A stretch of 37,043 nt of DNA from SAR86 cluster bacterium AG-313-N18 (lineage in GTDB: Bacteria > Pseudomonadota > Gammaproteobacteria > Magnimaribacterales > D2472), in contig QBVY01000010.1 in the NCBI GenBank assembly GCA_003283765.1, forward strand, positions 1 through 37,043. The letters are read 5' to 3'. Under the pieces are notes generated by a model, which ran no database searches, was not told the origin of the DNA, and saw only the letters and a program-made list of their open reading frames with translations. How positions within the stretch are numbered: the stretch's first letter is position 1; each line of letters starts with the position of its first letter. The position numbers and the translations under genes are program-made. Below, one piece after another: positions 1 through 7,797 of the stretch.

Positions 1-2
1 AT

Positions 3-164
3 AGACAGAACGCGATAATGGCTGCGCTTCAATACTTAACTAAAGAAAATATATTGGTAATATTGGGTAAGGGCCATGAAACTTTTATTGATATATCGGG
101 AAACAAAGTTCCATTTAATGACAGAGATTGTGTCTTAAAAATTTTAGGCAATGAAATTAATTAA
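3..164 (+). CDS. murE: MurE C-terminal fragment (UDP-MurNAc-tripeptide synthetase), cut by window edge
   Basis: An open frame from the window edge to TAA at 162-164 encodes the last 53 residues of a Mur ligase of the MurE type. The diagnostic stretch is ILGKGHET followed by a VPFNDRD segment, matching the GKGHE and SDR region at the end of MurE. MurE adds the third amino acid (meso-diaminopimelate in most Gram-negatives) to UDP-MurNAc-L-Ala-D-Glu in the cytoplasm. It overlaps the murF start by 14 bp, the usual murE-murF coupling. The N-terminal half of a MurE lies on the opposite strand at 1460-2176, so these may be two parts of one gene separated by an inversion. The residues between the two parts (about 215 codons by comparison with E. 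coli MurE) are not in the window and may lie to the left of base 1. Confidence 0.85.
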   Translation, partial: RQNAIMAALQYLTKENILVILGKGHETFIDISGNKVPFNDRDCVLKILGNEIN

Positions 165-1506
165 AAATACACAAGATTTATTAACTTCTCTTAAGCTTGA
201 TGTTAAAACAAGCTTGCCAATTAGAAATTTTCAAATAGATTCTAGAGAGGTCACGAAGAACTCGGTCTTTTTTGGCCTGACTGGTTCTAATGAAGATGGA
301 AGTCTTTATGCCGAGGATGCTATAAAAAAAGGTGCATCTCTTGCATTTATAAAAGGGACTAAAATTTTAAATTCCTCGGCTCAACCATCAAAAATTATTC
401 TAGTAAATAGTCCTGAAAAGTATCTTATCGAGTCTGCTAAGATTGCAATGGGAAGATATAAGGGAAGGGTTATTGGTGTTACTGGAAGTAATGGTAAAAC
501 AACCACAAAAAATATTTTAAAGAACGGCATAAAAAATAGTTATGCTAGTTTTCAAAACTATAACAATGACATTGGTTTACCGCTTTGTGCTTTGGAATTA
601 GATTCAAAAAATAGCACAGCAATTTTTGAAATGGGTGCAACAAAATTAGGTGATATAGATCTTCTATCTAAAATAATTAAGCCCAATATCGGCATTATTA
701 CTCACATAGGCCATTCACATTTAGAGGGGCTAAATTCAGTTAGAGGGGTATTAAAGGTTAAATCAGAGCTTATCAGCAACATACAAAAAGATGGGGCTGC
801 AATTGTTCCTGATAGTAAATATCTTAATTATTGGAAAAAAATGAGGGATGACATTACTTTTTATACGTTTGGTGAGAAATCCTCAGCATCTTATTTCCCG
901 AGTCAAATTAAGATGACAAAACAAGGCTTGTCTTTTTATATCGAATCTATTCATTTGAAAAAAAGAATTCCAATAAAAACTAAGCTTTTAGGAATGCATA
1001 ATGTGTTAAACATTCTTGCTTCCTTTGCAGCTATAAATGCTGCTCAGTTGAATATAGAGGAATTTGCACATGGCCTCAGAGGCCTTGTAAACCCTCCGCA
1101 GCGCTTAGAGCTTAAAACATGGGTAAAGCAGTCACAGGCCATCGATGACACTTACAATGCTAATCCAGATTCCATGAGAGCTGCAATAGATGTTTTATGT
1201 CAATTTAATGGAAGAAAGGTTGCAATTCTTGGGGATATGGCGGAGCTTGGTAGATATAGAAAAAAACTACACATACGATTGGGAGACTATGCCAAAATAA
1301 ACGGAATAGATATTTTACTTGGATATGGAGATTTGATCCGGCATACAGTTCTTGCATTTGGTGATCATGGGTATTTCTTTAAAAATAAAATAGAGTTAAT
1401 TGATTTCTTAAAAAAAAATCTAGTAGGCAAAGAGACTATTTTATTAAAAGGATCGCGATCTATGCGAATGGAAGAAATTCTAGATTTATGGAGTTTTTAT
1501 TATTAA
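151..1506 (+). CDS. murF: MurF, UDP-MurNAc-tripeptide:D-Ala-D-Ala ligase
   Basis: MurF joins D-Ala-D-Ala to UDP-MurNAc-tripeptide, the last cytoplasmic ligase step in peptidoglycan precursor synthesis. The 451-residue product matches the family length. It has the N-terminal Mur ligase domain, the ATP-binding loop GVTGSNGKTTT at about residues 109-119, the central domain, and the C-terminal domain ending with GSRSMRMEEI. The start overlaps the murE fragment by 14 bp. The last few codons (WSFYY) lie at the strand-switch junction near 1495-1512, so the extreme C-terminus may not be native. mraY would normally follow; instead the sequence runs into antisense murE. The strand is opposite to ftsI and the rest of the dcw cluster, which is abnormal. 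Confidence 0.93.
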   Translation: MKLIKNTQDLLTSLKLDVKTSLPIRNFQIDSREVTKNSVFFGLTGSNEDGSLYAEDAIKKGASLAFIKGTKILNSSAQPSKIILVNSPEKYLIESAKIAMGRYKGRVIGVTGSNGKTTTKNILKNGIKNSYASFQNYNNDIGLPLCALELDSKNSTAIFEMGATKLGDIDLLSKIIKPNIGIITHIGHSHLEGLNSVRGVLKVKSELISNIQKDGAAIVPDSKYLNYWKKMRDDITFYTFGEKSSASYFPSQIKMTKQGLSFYIESIHLKKRIPIKTKLLGMHNVLNILASFAAINAAQLNIEEFAHGLRGLVNPPQRLELKTWVKQSQAIDDTYNANPDSMRAAIDVLCQFNGRKVAILGDMAELGRYRKKLHIRLGDYAKINGIDILLGYGDLIRHTVLAFGDHGYFFKNKIELIDFLKKNLVGKETILLKGSRSMRMEEILDLWSFYY

Positions 1507-2176
1507 GATTAGCAATAGATAATTTTGCATTAATATAGCTTGTTTCTGTTTTATGATAATCAAGATGATCAGATTGAATATTAAGTATGATGGTCTGAAA
1601 AAAAGCTAAGTTACATAGCCTTTTTTGTACTAGAGCATGAGAAGAGATTTCGAGAAAAACATATGTTTTTTTTTGAGGTCTGCATGCTTGCAAAATTGCA
1701 AACAACTCAAATATTCCAGGAGTTGTATTACCCTTGGTTTGTATACGATCATCATTGATAATTGCTCCAAGAGTGCCAATATATAATGAGGGTTTGTGAA
1801 GCTCCCTCATAATATTATGTGCCATAAATGCTGTTGTTGTTTTTCCATTAGTGCCGGTCACACCATGAAAAATAAAATCATCCTTAGACAACTCATGAAA
1901 TCGAAATAAGATTTCAGGTAACATATCCTCTAGATTATTGATGTAGTAAATTGGTATATCTATCTCTCCTTCAACTGCTTGATCACTAATGACACATGAG
2001 GCTCCTTTTTTTGTTGCCTCTTTTATAAATTCTTTTCCATGTGATGCTTCTCCTTGTCTAGCCACGAACAAAGAATTTTTATTTACATCTCTTGAGTCAT
2101 CAGTTATGGATTCGATGAAGCATTCGTCAAACACATTTGTTTCAATGAGGGACTTAATAAGAGGTAATTTATTCAT
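1460..2176 (-). pseudogene. murE: MurE N-terminal half, truncated at an inversion breakpoint
   Basis: This 238-codon frame follows ftsI with an 8 bp overlap, the normal place for murE. It has the MurE substrate domain, the P-loop GVTGTNGKTTT at residues 105-115, and the central-domain landmarks SSHALVQKR and SDHLDYH. Family similarity fades after the AKLSIA stretch (about codons 217-222). The remaining codons are antisense to the end of murF and end at a chance stop. Full MurE is about 480-500 residues, so the second half of the central domain and the whole C-terminal domain are missing here. The matching C-terminus is on the plus strand at 3-164. As written it cannot make a working MurE. It may be a real rearrangement or an assembly or amplification chimera. 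Confidence 0.85.
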
Positions 2177-3773
2177 CTAAATAATTTAGGACATCTAAAG
2201 AGATAGCTGCAAATAATGGAGCTGCAACACTACCACCAGAATAATTATTTAATCCTGGCTCATCGATGGTTACAAAAATCGTAAGTCTCTTAGATTTTAA
2301 TGGTGCTATTCCTGCAAAGGATGCTATGTATCTACTTTGATCATAGCCACCTTTAGAGCTGGCTTTGTGAGATGTACCCGTTTTTCCTGCAACTTCATAA
2401 TTTGATAGCCTTGCTAAGTTACCTGTTCCATCTGTAACAACTAATTTTAATGACTTCAGCACATCATGGGCAGCATCTTTGCCTATTACTCTCTGTTTAT
2501 ATCCATCAACATTATCTTTAAAAATTTTAAAATCTTTAAGATAGCCTTCGTTAGCAAAAACTGAATATGCTTGGGCTAGTTGTAAAGATGAAGCAGTCAT
2601 GCTGTACCCAAATCCAATACTTGCAATTTCATGATCAGAGATATTATCTCTTGAATTAATAACTCCATATGCAACTCCAGGAAAAAATATGTTTGGCGGT
2701 TTTGAAAGTCCAAATCCCTTATATCCTGAAATCAGTCCATCTATTCCAACTTCCAAAGCTAGCTTAGAAGCACCAACCTGACTAGATTTTGAAATAATCT
2801 CACTAACAGTTAGCATTTTGTAATTTTTGGGATCTGACACTGTTCTACCGCTTAAATTTATAAATCCTGGACTAGTGTCAATTATCTGATTGATAGAAAG
2901 TATGCCCATATCAATACCTTTTGCTAAAACCAACGGTTTTATTATTGATCCTGGCTCAAATGCATCAACCAGAGCTCTATTCCTTTGAATCTGTCTTTGA
3001 GAACTGTTGGGGTTATAAGAGGGATAGCTGGCTATAGCAAGGATTTCTCCAGAAATATTATCTAAAATTATAACGCTACCACCTTTTGCATTATTGGCTT
3101 CAACAAAGCTTGAAAGATGTTTATATGCATAAAATTGAACTCTGCTATCAATAGTTAACTTTTGATCAGAGCCCTTGATAACTTCTTGCGTTACTTTGGA
3201 TCTCCTGCTTGCATTTCTATAAATAGTTTCTCGCCCAGGTACTCCAGACAATTCAGCATCTAAAATATTTTCAAGCCCCTCCAAGCCAAAACCATCTTTC
3301 CCTGAAAATCCGATCAAGGTAGATATTTGTTCACCCAATGGATAGTAGCGCTTTTGAAATGATTCAATCTCAATATCAGAAAGTTTCAAGTTTTTAATAT
3401 TCTCATATTGTGAAAAATTTAGATTAGAAAAAATTAAGGTTTTTTTATTAATTTCTTTAATAGCAGGAAAATCTTTTTTTAAAATTAGAAAATCTTTTAA
3501 TTTTGTAAAATCTTCCTCTGAAAAATTTTTTAGAGCGTATAAATCATATTGATTGATCGATACCGCAAGAGGAAAGTCATTCCTATCAAGTATACTCCCT
3601 CGGGTAGCAGGTATTGACCTGGAGGTCTCGAGCATGCTCTCACCTTTAGACTTTAAGAAATCTCCTTCAATATATTGAAGGCTGAATATTCTAAAAACTA
3701 AGATTAGTAAACTAAGTAATAAAAATATATATATTAGGTAAGCCCGCCAACTATAACCAAAATTATTTTTCAT
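2169..3773 (-). CDS. ftsI: FtsI (PBP3), septal peptidoglycan transpeptidase
   Basis: FtsI is the class B penicillin-binding protein that crosslinks septal peptidoglycan with FtsW. The 534-residue product has a short cytoplasmic N-terminus, one membrane anchor at about residues 11-31, a PBP dimerisation domain starting around RSIPATRGSILDR, and a transpeptidase domain. Active-site motifs seen are SxxK as S276-I-I-K279 and KTG as K464-T-G. The SxN motif reads S330-S-Q332 instead of the SSN of E. coli FtsI, a conservative but uncommon change at an active-site position. The start overlaps the ftsL end by 11 bp, and murE follows with an 8 bp overlap, so this is a tightly coupled operon. Confidence 0.95.
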   Translation of the reverse strand: MKNNFGYSWRAYLIYIFLLLSLLILVFRIFSLQYIEGDFLKSKGESMLETSRSIPATRGSILDRNDFPLAVSINQYDLYALKNFSEEDFTKLKDFLILKKDFPAIKEINKKTLIFSNLNFSQYENIKNLKLSDIEIESFQKRYYPLGEQISTLIGFSGKDGFGLEGLENILDAELSGVPGRETIYRNASRRSKVTQEVIKGSDQKLTIDSRVQFYAYKHLSSFVEANNAKGGSVIILDNISGEILAIASYPSYNPNSSQRQIQRNRALVDAFEPGSIIKPLVLAKGIDMGILSINQIIDTSPGFINLSGRTVSDPKNYKMLTVSEIISKSSQVGASKLALEVGIDGLISGYKGFGLSKPPNIFFPGVAYGVINSRDNISDHEIASIGFGYSMTASSLQLAQAYSVFANEGYLKDFKIFKDNVDGYKQRVIGKDAAHDVLKSLKLVVTDGTGNLARLSNYEVAGKTGTSHKASSKGGYDQSRYIASFAGIAPLKSKRLTIFVTIDEPGLNNYSGGSVAAPLFAAISLDVLNYLDE

Positions 3774-4038
3774 AACTTATATTAATTACTTTCCTTATCT
3801 CCACCATCCCTAAGACTTCTTTTGCATGACGTTCAACTTTTGCTGGAGAACTAAGATGATAATATTCAGTTTTTAAATTAAAGTTTATTTCGGTCAATTT
3901 ATTATTTGCAACTTGGAGATAAGCATTGTTCTCATGCTCCTGGCTAAATTGCCATCTAATTTTTATAGTCTCAAGACATATACAAAATAAAATAAAAATA
4001 TTTATAAATAAAATATAAACCACGATATCTTTTTTCAT
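3763..4038 (-). CDS. ftsL: FtsL, divisome bitopic membrane protein
   Basis: A 91-residue protein with one N-terminal membrane segment (about residues 7-24) followed by a helical, coiled-coil-like periplasmic part and the typical ending SPAKVERHAKEVLGM. FtsL forms the FtsQLB complex that activates FtsWI. The call rests on size, topology, the C-terminal pattern and position between rsmH and ftsI; primary sequence of the family is weakly conserved. It overlaps rsmH by 4 bp and ftsI by 11 bp. Confidence 0.85.
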   Translation of the reverse strand: MKKDIVVYILFINIFILFCICLETIKIRWQFSQEHENNAYLQVANNKLTEINFNLKTEYYHLSSPAKVERHAKEVLGMVEIRKVINISYEK

Positions 4039-4928
4039 AGCTTTAAAAATACCCTCATGATTGCACTTCTTGAACGAGGATTCATTTTGATCTCATTGGG
4101 GGATGGTTTGATTTTCTTTTTGATGCATCTATATGTTTCTTTTACTGAGGTGTTAATTGGTATATCTTTTGGCGGTTCTTCAATTTCAGGTTTAAAAAAA
4201 TTTTTTACAATTCTATCCTCTAGAGAATGGAATGAAATAATTACAACTACTCCACCAACTTTCAGCACATTTTGTAACTTTGAGAGCGCTATTTTTAAAT
4301 GATATAACTCATTGTTTACATGTATTCTTATTGCTTGAAACGATTTTGTTGCTGGATGAGTTTTACCAGTTCTCTTAAGAACTGTCTCAATTATTTTTGT
4401 AAGTTCAATGGTAGATTGCAATGGTTTTATAGATCTAAATTTCACTATAGCTTTTGCAATTTTTCTTGATGATTTCTCATCTCCATATTCATATAGAATA
4501 TTACTTATTTCTTTTTCAGGAGCACTATTTAGCCACTCAGCTGCACTAAACCCTGAAGACATATCCATTCTCATATCCAAAGGTCCGTCACTTTGAAAAC
4601 TGAAACCTCTAAATGGATTATCTAAATGAGTTGAGCAAGTACCTAGATCAAGTAGTATCCCATCAAATCTCTGCTTGTAAAATAATGAATTAACCTCAGA
4701 ATAATTTGAGTGATAGATGCTAAAACGTGGGTCAGCAATATTTTCTTTTGCAAATGAGACTGCTTCTAAGTCTCTATCAACTGCATGAAGCCTCCCAAGC
4801 GGAGAAAGTCTATTTAGAAGTTCTTGAGAGTGGCTGCCTCGTCCAAAAGTAAGATCTAAATACGTTCCAGATAAATCATGCAGCAAGAAATCTAATGATT
4901 CTTCCAGCAGAACTGGAACATGAAGCAT
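4035..4928 (-). CDS. rsmH: RsmH, 16S rRNA m4C1402 methyltransferase
   Basis: RsmH (MraW) uses S-adenosylmethionine to N4-methylate C1402 of 16S rRNA. The product of 297 residues has the family start MLHVPVLLEESLDFL, the SAM-binding segment YLDLTFGRGSHS, the motif DGILLDLGTCSTHLD and the ending MNPRSRSAIMRVF. Length is slightly under the 313 residues of E. coli RsmH. It starts 4 bp after the ftsZ stop, so it is probably translated from the mraZ-ftsZ transcript. RsmI (6976-7797), encoded nearby, methylates the ribose of the same nucleotide. Confidence 0.95.
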   Translation of the reverse strand: MLHVPVLLEESLDFLLHDLSGTYLDLTFGRGSHSQELLNRLSPLGRLHAVDRDLEAVSFAKENIADPRFSIYHSNYSEVNSLFYKQRFDGILLDLGTCSTHLDNPFRGFSFQSDGPLDMRMDMSSGFSAAEWLNSAPEKEISNILYEYGDEKSSRKIAKAIVKFRSIKPLQSTIELTKIIETVLKRTGKTHPATKSFQAIRIHVNNELYHLKIALSKLQNVLKVGGVVVIISFHSLEDRIVKNFFKPEIEEPPKDIPINTSVKETYRCIKKKIKPSPNEIKMNPRSRSAIMRVFLKL

Positions 4929-4932
4929 CTTT

Positions 4933-6060
4933 TTAGTCTACTTGCTTTCTCATGAAGGTTGGCACATCAAGGAAATCTATATCCTCTGCAGACGATGTGC
5001 CACCTGACTCAACTGTTTGGTCGATTTTAGGTGCATCCAGACCTACTGGATTTAGTTGAACTGTTGCTCTTCTCGAATTATCAACAGCTAAAGTTGCTGT
5101 TTTTTGATTAACGCCTGTTGCCACAACAGTAACCAATAATTCTTCTTCATCCATCGAATCTTCCATTACAGTTCCATAAATTATAGTTGCATCATCAGCG
5201 GTAAAGTCTCTAATTACTGAATCAACTTCATCAAAATCTGCCATTGTCGGTGATTTTGCAGTTATATTTACTAAGATGCCTCGTGCATCCTTTAATTCAA
5301 TATCTTCAAGCAGCTCTGAGCTTACAGCTTGACTGGCTGCATCAATGCCTCTTTCATCAGCGGTTGATTGCCCTGTACCCATCATAGCGATGCCTTTTTC
5401 TGACATAACTGTCTTTACATCCGCAAAGTCAACATTAATGTATCCCGGCTTCATAATAATGTCAGATATGCCTTGAACTGCTCCTTTTAAAATATCATCT
5501 GCCTTGGCAAATGCTTCTTCCATCGATGTTTTTCTACCCAAAATATCCATCAATTTTTGATTTGGTATAGTAATTAAGCTGTCGACTTCCTCAACTAGCT
5601 CAGCTATTCCTTGTTCCGCTGCAGCTTTTCTTTTGTGTCCTTCGAAATTAAATGGTTTAGTTACAACTGCAACTGTTAAAGCTCCAAGCTCCTTAGCAAT
5701 TTCGGCAATTACTGGTGCAGCGCCAGTCCCAGTTCCGCCTCCCATACCTGCAGTTATGAAGATCATATCTGCACCAGCTAATAACTCTTCGATTGCAGCC
5801 CTGTCTCTTTCAGCTGCGGCCCTTCCTACCTGAGGATCTGCTCCAGCCCCTAAACCTCTTGTTACATTATCACCAAGCTTTAAAATAGTAGATCCTTTTG
5901 CTCTATCTAATGCCTGAGAATCAGTATTTGCGCAAATAAAATCTGCTCCCTGAATTTCATGGTTTATCATATGAATAACTGCATTTCCACCTGCTCCGCC
6001 GACGCCAATGACTTTAATTTTGGCTAATCCAGCATTTTCTTCAATTATTTCCCAATTCAT
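4933..6060 (-). CDS. ftsZ: FtsZ, tubulin-like cell division GTPase
   Basis: FtsZ polymerises into the Z ring at mid-cell and recruits the divisome. The 375-residue product is full length: the N-terminal nucleotide-binding part with KVIGVGGAGGNA, the tubulin signature MGGGTGTG at 106-113, a short variable linker, and the conserved C-terminal peptide FLDVPTFMRKQ that binds FtsA and ZipA in other species. A strong ribosome site (AGGGG) lies 7 bp before ATG. Position is unusual: it sits between mraZ (12 bp upstream) and rsmH (4 bp downstream). In most gammaproteobacteria ftsZ closes the dcw cluster after ftsQ-ftsA. Here its expression is probably tied to the MraZ-controlled promoter. Confidence 0.97.
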   Translation of the reverse strand: MNWEIIEENAGLAKIKVIGVGGAGGNAVIHMINHEIQGADFICANTDSQALDRAKGSTILKLGDNVTRGLGAGADPQVGRAAAERDRAAIEELLAGADMIFITAGMGGGTGTGAAPVIAEIAKELGALTVAVVTKPFNFEGHKRKAAAEQGIAELVEEVDSLITIPNQKLMDILGRKTSMEEAFAKADDILKGAVQGISDIIMKPGYINVDFADVKTVMSEKGIAMMGTGQSTADERGIDAASQAVSSELLEDIELKDARGILVNITAKSPTMADFDEVDSVIRDFTADDATIIYGTVMEDSMDEEELLVTVVATGVNQKTATLAVDNSRRATVQLNPVGLDAPKIDQTVESGGTSSAEDIDFLDVPTFMRKQVD

Positions 6061-6071
6061 TTTCTACCCCT

Positions 6072-6539
6072 TTAAAAAGATATTGTTTTTAGTCTCTCTG
6101 GTAATACAACCTCAAGAATTTCAGTTGATAAAGCGCCGCCTGTTTGTCTCATTTCCCAGTTTTTACCATTCCAAACTTCAAATTTATTTCCCATACCAAT
6201 AAATGATACTTTTTCAGCTTTGCTGATTTCTGCATATTCTCGAAGTTCTAATGGCAAAAGTACTAGCATTCTACCTTTGGGATCAAATGAGCTAACGCTA
6301 GCATTCCCTAGAATTGTCCATTGTAAGTTTCTTACGATTGGATCAAGACCCTGCAATGATTGCAGTTCACTGGATATGCTATTCCAAATTGAGCCAGGAT
6401 ATATTTTTAATGCTGGATATTGAGGGTCTTTTGTTACAACAATACTTTCTTCATTTTGAGAAAGAAGTTGATCTCGATATTTAGCCGGAATAGCTAGCCT
6501 TCCCTTTGCATCTATCGAAATTGTTGTAAAACCAAACAT
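6072..6539 (-). CDS. mraZ: MraZ, transcriptional regulator of the dcw operon
   Basis: MraZ is a ring-forming DNA-binding protein that controls its own operon. The 155-residue product has two tandem SpoVT/AbrB-like repeats, each with the DxKGR signature: IDAKGRLAIPAKYRD at the N-terminus and FDPKGRMLVLLP in the middle. It is the first gene of the mraZ-ftsZ-rsmH-ftsL-ftsI-murE' unit. Direct repeats 26-63 bp upstream of its ATG match the known type of MraZ site (see operator). No clear Shine-Dalgarno sequence is visible before the start. Confidence 0.93.
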   Translation of the reverse strand: MFGFTTISIDAKGRLAIPAKYRDQLLSQNEESIVVTKDPQYPALKIYPGSIWNSISSELQSLQGLDPIVRNLQWTILGNASVSSFDPKGRMLVLLPLELREYAEISKAEKVSFIGMGNKFEVWNGKNWEMRQTGGALSTEILEVVLPERLKTISF

Positions 6540-6564
6540 AATGTATGTAAAAATTTATTACTAC

Positions 6565-6602
6565 ACACTTTATACTACATTTAACACACTTTTACACACT
6601 TT
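6565..6602 (-). promoter_or_regulatory. MraZ operator: four direct repeats of AAAGTGT type, about 10 bp period
   Basis: On the minus strand, AAAGTGT occurs at 6602-6596, 6592-6586 and 6571-6565, with a weaker copy (AAATGTA) at 6582-6576. Starts are 10, 10 and 11 bp apart, so all copies face the same side of the helix. Known MraZ sites are short direct repeats with the same periodicity: TGGGN repeats in E. coli, and AAAGTG[T/G] with 3 bp spacers in Mollicutes. The copies here fit the second form. The array sits between the rnpB 3' end and the mraZ ATG. The autoregulatory role is inferred. Confidence 0.75.
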
Positions 6603-6607
6603 TTTTT

Positions 6608-6614
6608 AAAAAAA
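6608..6614 (-). terminator. U-tract after RNase P RNA, possible terminator
   Basis: Seven U residues follow the mature 3' end of rnpB on the minus strand after a short ACCUCA tail. The closing P1 helix of the RNA could serve as the hairpin, but no separate GC-rich stem is seen, so read-through into mraZ is possible. Confidence 0.4.
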
Positions 6615-6616
6615 TG

Positions 6617-6950
6617 AGGTGAGTTGATCTATAAGCCGGATTCTGTATTAAATGACCATCTATCTAGGCAATATGTCACCATATTACTCAAGCAACCTAC
6701 CCGAATCCTAGACGAGTAGCCTAAACGGATTCCTATTTGGTTTTGCTTCAAAGTGGGGTTTACACTGCCATATTTGTTACCAAATACGCGATAGGCTCTT
6801 ACCCTACCATTTCACCCTTACCAATTTCTTGGCGGTATATTTTCTGTTGCACTTGCCGTAAGCTCACGCTCCCCAGGAGTTACCTGGCACTCTACTCTAT
6901 GAAGTCCGGACTTTCCTCTAACAAATTGCTAGCAGTCATCCGATCAACTC
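6617..6950 (-). ncRNA. rnpB: RNase P RNA, bacterial class A
   Basis: The catalytic RNA that removes the 5' leader of pre-tRNAs. About 334 nt, slightly shorter than E. coli (377). Conserved blocks read on the minus strand: GAGGAAAGTCCGG (6918-6906), GCCAGGTAAC with CCTGG, GGGTGAAATGGTAGGGTAAGAGC-type core (ending 6795), the AAACCCCACTT and CCAAATAGG segments, GGGTAGGTTGCTTGAG (6702-6687), and CAGAATCCGGCTTATAGATC at the 3' end. The ends pair as P1: GAGTTGATC at 6950-6942 with GATCAACTC at 6629-6621. The 3' ACCU tail matches E. coli. Its location between rsmI and mraZ is as in Pseudomonas. A plus-strand reading frame over it (6737-7072) is spurious. Confidence 0.97.
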
Positions 6951-6951
6951 G

Positions 6952-6975: not shown

Positions 6976-7797
6976 TTATTTAGAAATGCCTAAGAGGAAT
7001 TTGTATACTTCTTGCTTGGAAAAAGAGCTAACTTTAGCTATTAGTTTTGATGCATCTGTTGGAGATAAATAATCAAGAAATGGACGGCAAAAATTTTCAT
7101 CTAAATTTAAAGCTCTGCTGGAAAATGAGCGTGGATAAACAAGAATCACAAACTCTCCTAACAGAGTTATTTGATTATTTTTGATAAGAGCCAAAACTTC
7201 ATCAATGGTTCCCCTGTAAATTGATTCATGTTCCTTGGTCATCTCGCGGCAAATTGCTAATTGAGTATCTGGGCTGAGATTCTCAGAAAAAATTGAAATG
7301 GTTTTGCTAATCCTCTTTGCAGATTCAAAAAAAATAGTTGTTAAATCAGAATTTTGTAACTTGATCGCAATTTTTCTTTTTGCCTCATGTTGTTTTGGTA
7401 AAAACCCATTAAAAGAAAACTTATCTGTTGGTAAGCCTGAGAGAATCAAAGCATTTATGACTGCAGAGGGCCCTGGAAGGACTGTAAAAGTAATCCCCTC
7501 TTCAATGCATTTTTGAATCAATGGATACCCTGGATCAGATATAAGTGGCGCCCCGGCATCAGAAAGAAGCGCCAAAGTTTTTCCATCTTTAATGAGCTTA
7601 ATTATTTCATTACTAGCTTCATTCTCATTATGCTCATGGAATGGTTTGGTGTTCTTTTGAATATCAAAATGCTGTAAAAGTTTTGCAGCAACCCTGGTAT
7701 CTTCTGCAAAAATCTTATCTACTTCCTTTAAAGTATTAATTGACCTCAATGAGAAATCATTTAAATTACCAATTGGACTACAAATTATATAAAGCAT
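6976..7797 (-). CDS. rsmI: RsmI, 16S rRNA 2'-O-ribose C1402 methyltransferase
   Basis: RsmI methylates the ribose of C1402 in 16S rRNA, the nucleotide whose base is methylated by RsmH. The 273-residue product has the tetrapyrrole-methylase fold signatures: IICSPIGNLNDFSLRS at the start, FAEDTRVAAKLL, the HEHNENE motif, the glycine-rich DAGAPLISDPGYPL, and VLPGPSAVINAL. Length compares well with E. coli RsmI (286). The ATG is only 12 bp from the lpoA ATG on the other strand, an arrangement also found in E. coli (yraL/yraM), though there with more space. rnpB follows downstream on the same strand. Confidence 0.95.
   Translation of the reverse strand: MLYIICSPIGNLNDFSLRSINTLKEVDKIFAEDTRVAAKLLQHFDIQKNTKPFHEHNENEASNEIIKLIKDGKTLALLSDAGAPLISDPGYPLIQKCIEEGITFTVLPGPSAVINALILSGLPTDKFSFNGFLPKQHEAKRKIAIKLQNSDLTTIFFESAKRISKTISIFSENLSPDTQLAICREMTKEHESIYRGTIDEVLALIKNNQITLLGEFVILVYPRSFSSRALNLDENFCRPFLDYLSPTDASKLIAKVSSFSKQEVYKFLLGISK
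7766..7793 (+). promoter_or_regulatory. Candidate lpoA promoter inside the rsmI 5' end
   Basis: TTACCA at 7766-7771 and TATAAA at 7788-7793 are 16 bp apart and point to a start near 7800, leaving about 10 nt before the lpoA ATG at 7810. The hexamers match consensus at 4 and 5 of 6 positions. Because only 12 bp separate the two start codons, a promoter for lpoA has to overlap the rsmI coding sequence. Confidence 0.35.

Follow-up and report, generated by a model that had tools for sequence, protein, structure and literature searches.

The two ends of murE lie on opposite strands at the start of contig C10, with murF between them. The question is whether the sampled cell carried such an arrangement in its dcw cluster, or whether it arose after the DNA had left the cell. 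The window analyzed here is the complete contig, 37,043 bp long, with a contig end at base 1. The assembly to which it belongs comprises 1,198,394 bp in 45 contigs and is estimated to be approximately 73.5% complete. The junction in question sits 1.5 kb from the end of the contig, and the region around it contains no Ns.

Gene pieces at the contig start

The preliminary description had put halves of murE on opposite strands at the contig start. Gene calls, their strands and the alignments with relatives all confirmed this (Table 1).

Table 1. Features at the start of contig C10 and at the head of its dcw cluster (window coordinates)
Feature	Position	Strand	Remarks
murE 3' end	1..164	+	last 53 codons (approximately 434–486) and stop at 162–164; cut by the contig end
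murF, native part	151..1492	+	codons 1–447 and a single base of the next
Artificial tail of the 238-aa murE frame	1460..1492	-	antisense murF, 10 codons and stop
Putative chimeric junction	1492/1493		end of murF abuts murE codon 228 in reverse complement
Artificial end of the 451-aa murF frame	1493..1506	+	antisense murE and a chance stop
murE codons 1–228	1493..2176	-	usual place after ftsI
ftsI	2169..3773	-	intact, collinear flank; PF00905, 203 bits
ftsZ	4933..6539	-	between mraZ and rsmH
RNase P RNA gene	6616..6951	-	between rsmI and mraZ; RF00010, 310.3 bits

The plus-strand piece, read earlier as C-terminal murE codons at 3–164, was indeed the end of the gene, its codons being numbered here after a relative with a 486-aa murE. 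By tblastn, all 17 relative loci had a murE 3' end that was 53–85% identical to it. The matches spanned 50–53 residues in 16 of these loci; that in L116, cut short by the contig end, spanned 37. Codons 229–433 were absent between the two pieces of the contig.

The family model TIGR01143 identified the next frame as murF (367.5 bits, against a cut-off of 288.6). It overlapped the murE tail by 14 bp (in the 151–164 region), exactly as in G022, the closest relative over murE and murF. The frame had been given as murF at 151–1506. Its identity stood, but not its end: homology to relatives stopped at 1492, and the final four residues came from antisense murE. The murF of near relatives ends with W-K-stop at this place, and that of G022 has 448 aa and the C-terminal residues DLWK.

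The minus-strand half of murE had been assigned to 1460–2176. Both its strand and its place after ftsI proved correct, but only the part from 1493 onward is native, and the last 10 residues of the frame are antisense murF. No counterpart of this tail was present in the murE of relatives. Similarly, the break had been estimated at about codon 225; it does fall in the middle of murE, with the native codons running to 228. The best models for this half were NF001126 (182.7 bits) and TIGR01085 (172.1 bits). Neither score reached the cut-off for the whole protein (373 and 257.3, respectively), as expected from the truncation of the gene. The half aligned with codons 1–227/229 of murE in 17 of 17 relatives (11–228 in L105).

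There were no internal stops in the murE halves or in murF. The dN/dS ratios against G022 were approximately 0.15 for the N-terminal half of murE, 0.26 for the C-terminal piece (53 codons) and 0.15 for murF. Judged from these ratios and the intact frames, the three pieces show no decay, and their pattern is that of functional genes.

The junction and its counterparts in relatives

Seventeen same-genus genomes (16 loci and G040) had the N-terminal half of murE on the same fetched stretch as murF, and in all 17 the two lay on one strand. Where the contig extended to ftsI (15 loci and G040, 16 in all), this gene shared their strand. The murE of 17 relatives was one open frame of 470–487 aa; six of the 23 other genus genomes gave no match. 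In G003 the contig ends inside murE, which is on a single strand as far as it is present. In G006 and G017, the murE 3' end and murF were on one strand, and the N-terminal half was missing. Comparison with related genomes, which the preliminary description had proposed as a check, gave murE and murF on one strand wherever both could be compared. Downstream of murF, G022 has mraY (TIGR00445, 423.7 bits) and a MurD-like ligase, the murD score of which (198.2) is below the cut-off (211.95).

The segment 1100–1900, which spans the junction, was used as the query against 26 genus genomes, with the best 20 candidates per genome scored. The junction was not seen in any of the 25 other genomes. Both pieces were found in 16 of them, collinear in the genome in every case; four gave one piece and five gave none. 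In G022, window positions 1102–1492 matched the end of murF and positions 1493–1900 matched murE on the opposite strand. These two pieces lay on one contig, separated by 2,105 bp, and in the query they abutted at 393/394 with neither a gap nor an overlap. In the more distant G008, G014 and G007, the alignment on the murE side began up to 9 bases earlier, and identity at the join was inexact.

In counting microhomology at the junction, the missing sequence of this species was replaced by that of relatives. Thirteen relatives were entered and two were dropped (L114, in which the script misplaced the murF end, and L139, in which none was found). The remaining 11 all gave 0 bp. This bears on the possibility that the head-to-head join was made by the assembler from two true contigs, with no chimeric molecule involved. 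Assembly by overlaps or k-mers requires shared sequence, and none is predicted at the join, nor are there Ns. Such a misassembly would fit the position at a contig end and the fragmentation of the assembly. Contigs of several relatives also end in ftsI–murE, a region that may assemble badly. We regard it as improbable and, given the lack of shared bases, prefer a physical chimeric molecule over an error in the assembly graph.

G022 was the nearest relative on both sides of the junction, at 84–90% identity per 250-base step over positions 1–3000 (G015 tied in two steps). The same affinity on either side suggested that the two sides probably came from one local molecule. The preliminary description had also raised a mixed population, and this now appears less likely. 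That the halves came from different co-binned strains or species is hardly credible. The affinities of the contig are mosaic (G022, then G011, then G020), as a mixture would have it, but they shift at approximately 3.25 and 4.25 kb and not at 1492, and identity to the common nearest relative is similar on the two sides.

Compared with G001 over the whole contig, all 35 other window genes tested kept their order and orientation, and the murE/murF break was the sole break in orientation seen (rows at 45% identity or less were excluded from the collinearity table). G020, G022 and G008 were also collinear over the stretches fetched, with one exception: in G008, ech, coab and metF (labels assigned here) were not found between degS and murA.

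Other features along the contig

The nearest relative varied along the contig. G022 (84–90%) was nearest over most of the first 3.25 kb or so (murF–murE–ftsI), and G011 (88–93%) at approximately 3251–4250. From approximately 4250 to 28500, G020 was nearest over most of the sequence compared. Beyond 9 kb, the steps were compared with four relatives. The mosaic suggests homologous recombination around ftsI–murE, or else a mixed assembly.

Contigs ended within ftsI–murE in eight of the 26 genus genomes (G000, G003, G004, G006, G015, G017, G018 and G021). By eye, this looks like clustering above chance.

At its head, the dcw cluster has ftsZ flanked by mraZ and rsmH. The usual position of ftsQAZ is near the end of the cluster. 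Thirty of the 35 ftsZ matches were fetched in a survey of ftsZ neighborhoods. mraZ adjoined ftsZ in 19 of 19 genus loci, the present one included, and rsmH came next in 18; L178 is cut inside ftsZ. In two other families of the order (f2 and f3), ftsZ was directly before ftsI in 11 fetched loci. G027 (f2) has the order mraZ-rsmH-(ftsL-like)-ftsQ-ftsA-ftsZ-ftsI-murE-murF, in which ftsQ is a weak match below the cut-off and the ftsL-like gene is assigned by position and length only. G026 (f4) has ftsZ-rsmH-ftsI, with no mraZ match. Having ftsZ flanked by mraZ and rsmH is a lineage trait of the genus, separate from the murE/murF junction.

Positions 6501–6750 were 89–99% identical in 14 relatives, compared with 70–94% in the steps 6001–6500 and 7001–7500. 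The RNase P RNA gene (Table 1) accounts for this unusual conservation.

Origin of the junction

A genuine inversion, in the cell or strain sampled, would have split murE by turning approximately 2.1 kb (murE codons 229–486 and murF). The lone sequenced junction resembles one end of such an event, and uncorrupted halves are also predicted if the event was very recent. A reciprocal junction was looked for. One junction was present; neither the second junction nor murE codons 229–433 nor mraY was found in the 73.5%-complete assembly. In a DNA comparison with the 3' half of the G022 murE, the only match in the assembly was window 1–169, and there was no match to PF00953 (MraY family). C10 itself stops within the gap that begins inside murE.

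murE is essential, and a split murE would be lethal. An inversion would have destroyed the sole copy found. No second murE turned up in the assembly, and no second copy of window 1–1506. The sole other Mur_ligase_C match, on C34, was considered as a second murE and rejected, as family models identified it as mpl. A scan of contigs for murE relatives gave 80 loci, all distant (at most 41% identity in the rows listed), and these were not used. Phage records gave no match to window 1–2700, and no relatives of the murE half were found in the viral contigs searched.

The inversion was also not seen in the 25 other genomes searched, and both pieces were recovered from 16 of these. In G022, the one relative tested, there were 30 pairs of inverted repeats; none of the 25 longest had its arms at the two breakpoints. 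In the window, likewise, no pair able to drive an inversion lay at both breakpoints among those listed. We therefore consider a genuine inversion very unlikely. A recent or phase-like inversion splitting murE in this lineage, with the contig ends of relatives in ftsI–murE reflecting structural polymorphism and not assembly trouble, is more doubtful still.

All comparable relatives have murE in one piece, and an artefact is thus the most likely origin. We interpreted the junction as an inverted chimera made in vitro at the contig end, not a genuine genomic feature, with a probability of about 85%. The preliminary description had leaned toward an artefact and named a foldback or amplification chimera as one of its branches. 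The one-strand arrangement in relatives, the failure to see the junction in the 25 other genus genomes searched, the position at a contig end and the lack of matches to murE codons 229–433 and mraY in the assembly all support that branch. The living cell very probably had a single, ordinary ftsI–murE–murF–mraY run.

Such an intramolecular chimera could arise during the copying of DNA in vitro, in single-cell multiple displacement amplification (MDA) or a similar procedure. By the most likely route, a 3' end extended as far as murE codon 228 would have been displaced. The displaced end would have primed again 2.1 kb away, where the end of murF lay on a neighboring strand of opposite polarity. 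Copying would then have run back through murF into the 3' end of murE, where the contig stops. Priming in the opposite direction would give an identical product, and the order of these steps is inferred. The chimera was probably retained in the assembly since the true continuation was poorly covered.

The second segment is inverted with respect to the genome, and the joined points are less than 10 kb apart (2,105 bp in G022), as in inverted chimeras. Microhomology at the join, which is usual but not obligatory, was 0 bp by the count above. Inversions of such short range are the main product of MDA: among 475 chimeras from single-cell MDA of E. coli (Lasken and Stockwell, 2007, PMC1855051), 406 were inverted, and in 337 of the inverted ones the join points were less than 10 kb apart. 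According to the same figures, 93.5% of the inverted chimeras under 10 kb had complementary bases, and junctions with one or no base pair also occurred. The rate given there is not small, with a chimeric junction roughly every 22 kb of MDA DNA. For a single-cell workflow applied to three benchmark cultures, 1.5 misassemblies per 100 kb are given (PMC11247762).

Other contig starts of the same assembly were compared. Twenty other contigs were screened over their first 6 kb by the layout of open reading frames, and four (C6, C8, C13 and C14), picked for opposite-strand or overlapping neighbors, were compared with six relatives. None of the four showed an inverted junction where relatives matched. 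The start of C8 matched in one piece in all six relatives. That of C6 matched in one piece in four, was split across two contigs in G022 and had no match in G014. The start of C14 was in one piece in G020, G001 and G040; in G008 and G014 it matched as two pieces on one strand, and G022 gave no match. G020, G001 and G008 matched the first 3.2–3.9 kb of C13 without a change of strand, and approximately 3.9–5.6 kb had no match; G040 gave only a short repeat-like match, and G022 and G014 gave none. These four starts do not support the idea that chimeras are frequent at the contig starts of this assembly. The lack of a second example among them, together with the zero predicted microhomology, counts against the chimera.

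If not flagged, the contig would be annotated with a broken murE and a mis-ended murF. It could then be cited as a case of loss of peptidoglycan synthesis or of rearrangement of the dcw cluster. Bases 1–1492 are to be handled as a misjoined piece.

In its form, the junction resembles the inverted chimeras that Lasken and Stockwell (2007, PMC1855051) describe from MDA: points 2.1 kb apart are joined in inverted orientation, and the remainder is collinear. It differs from most of those described there in its 0 bp of predicted microhomology. Against the canonical ftsI–murE–murF–mraY segment of the dcw cluster, the contig start departs in the interruption of murE at codon 228 and the reversal of the remainder, where relatives are continuous. 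On the other hand, the gene pieces themselves, the short overlap between murE and murF and the order with ftsI are the same as in relatives.
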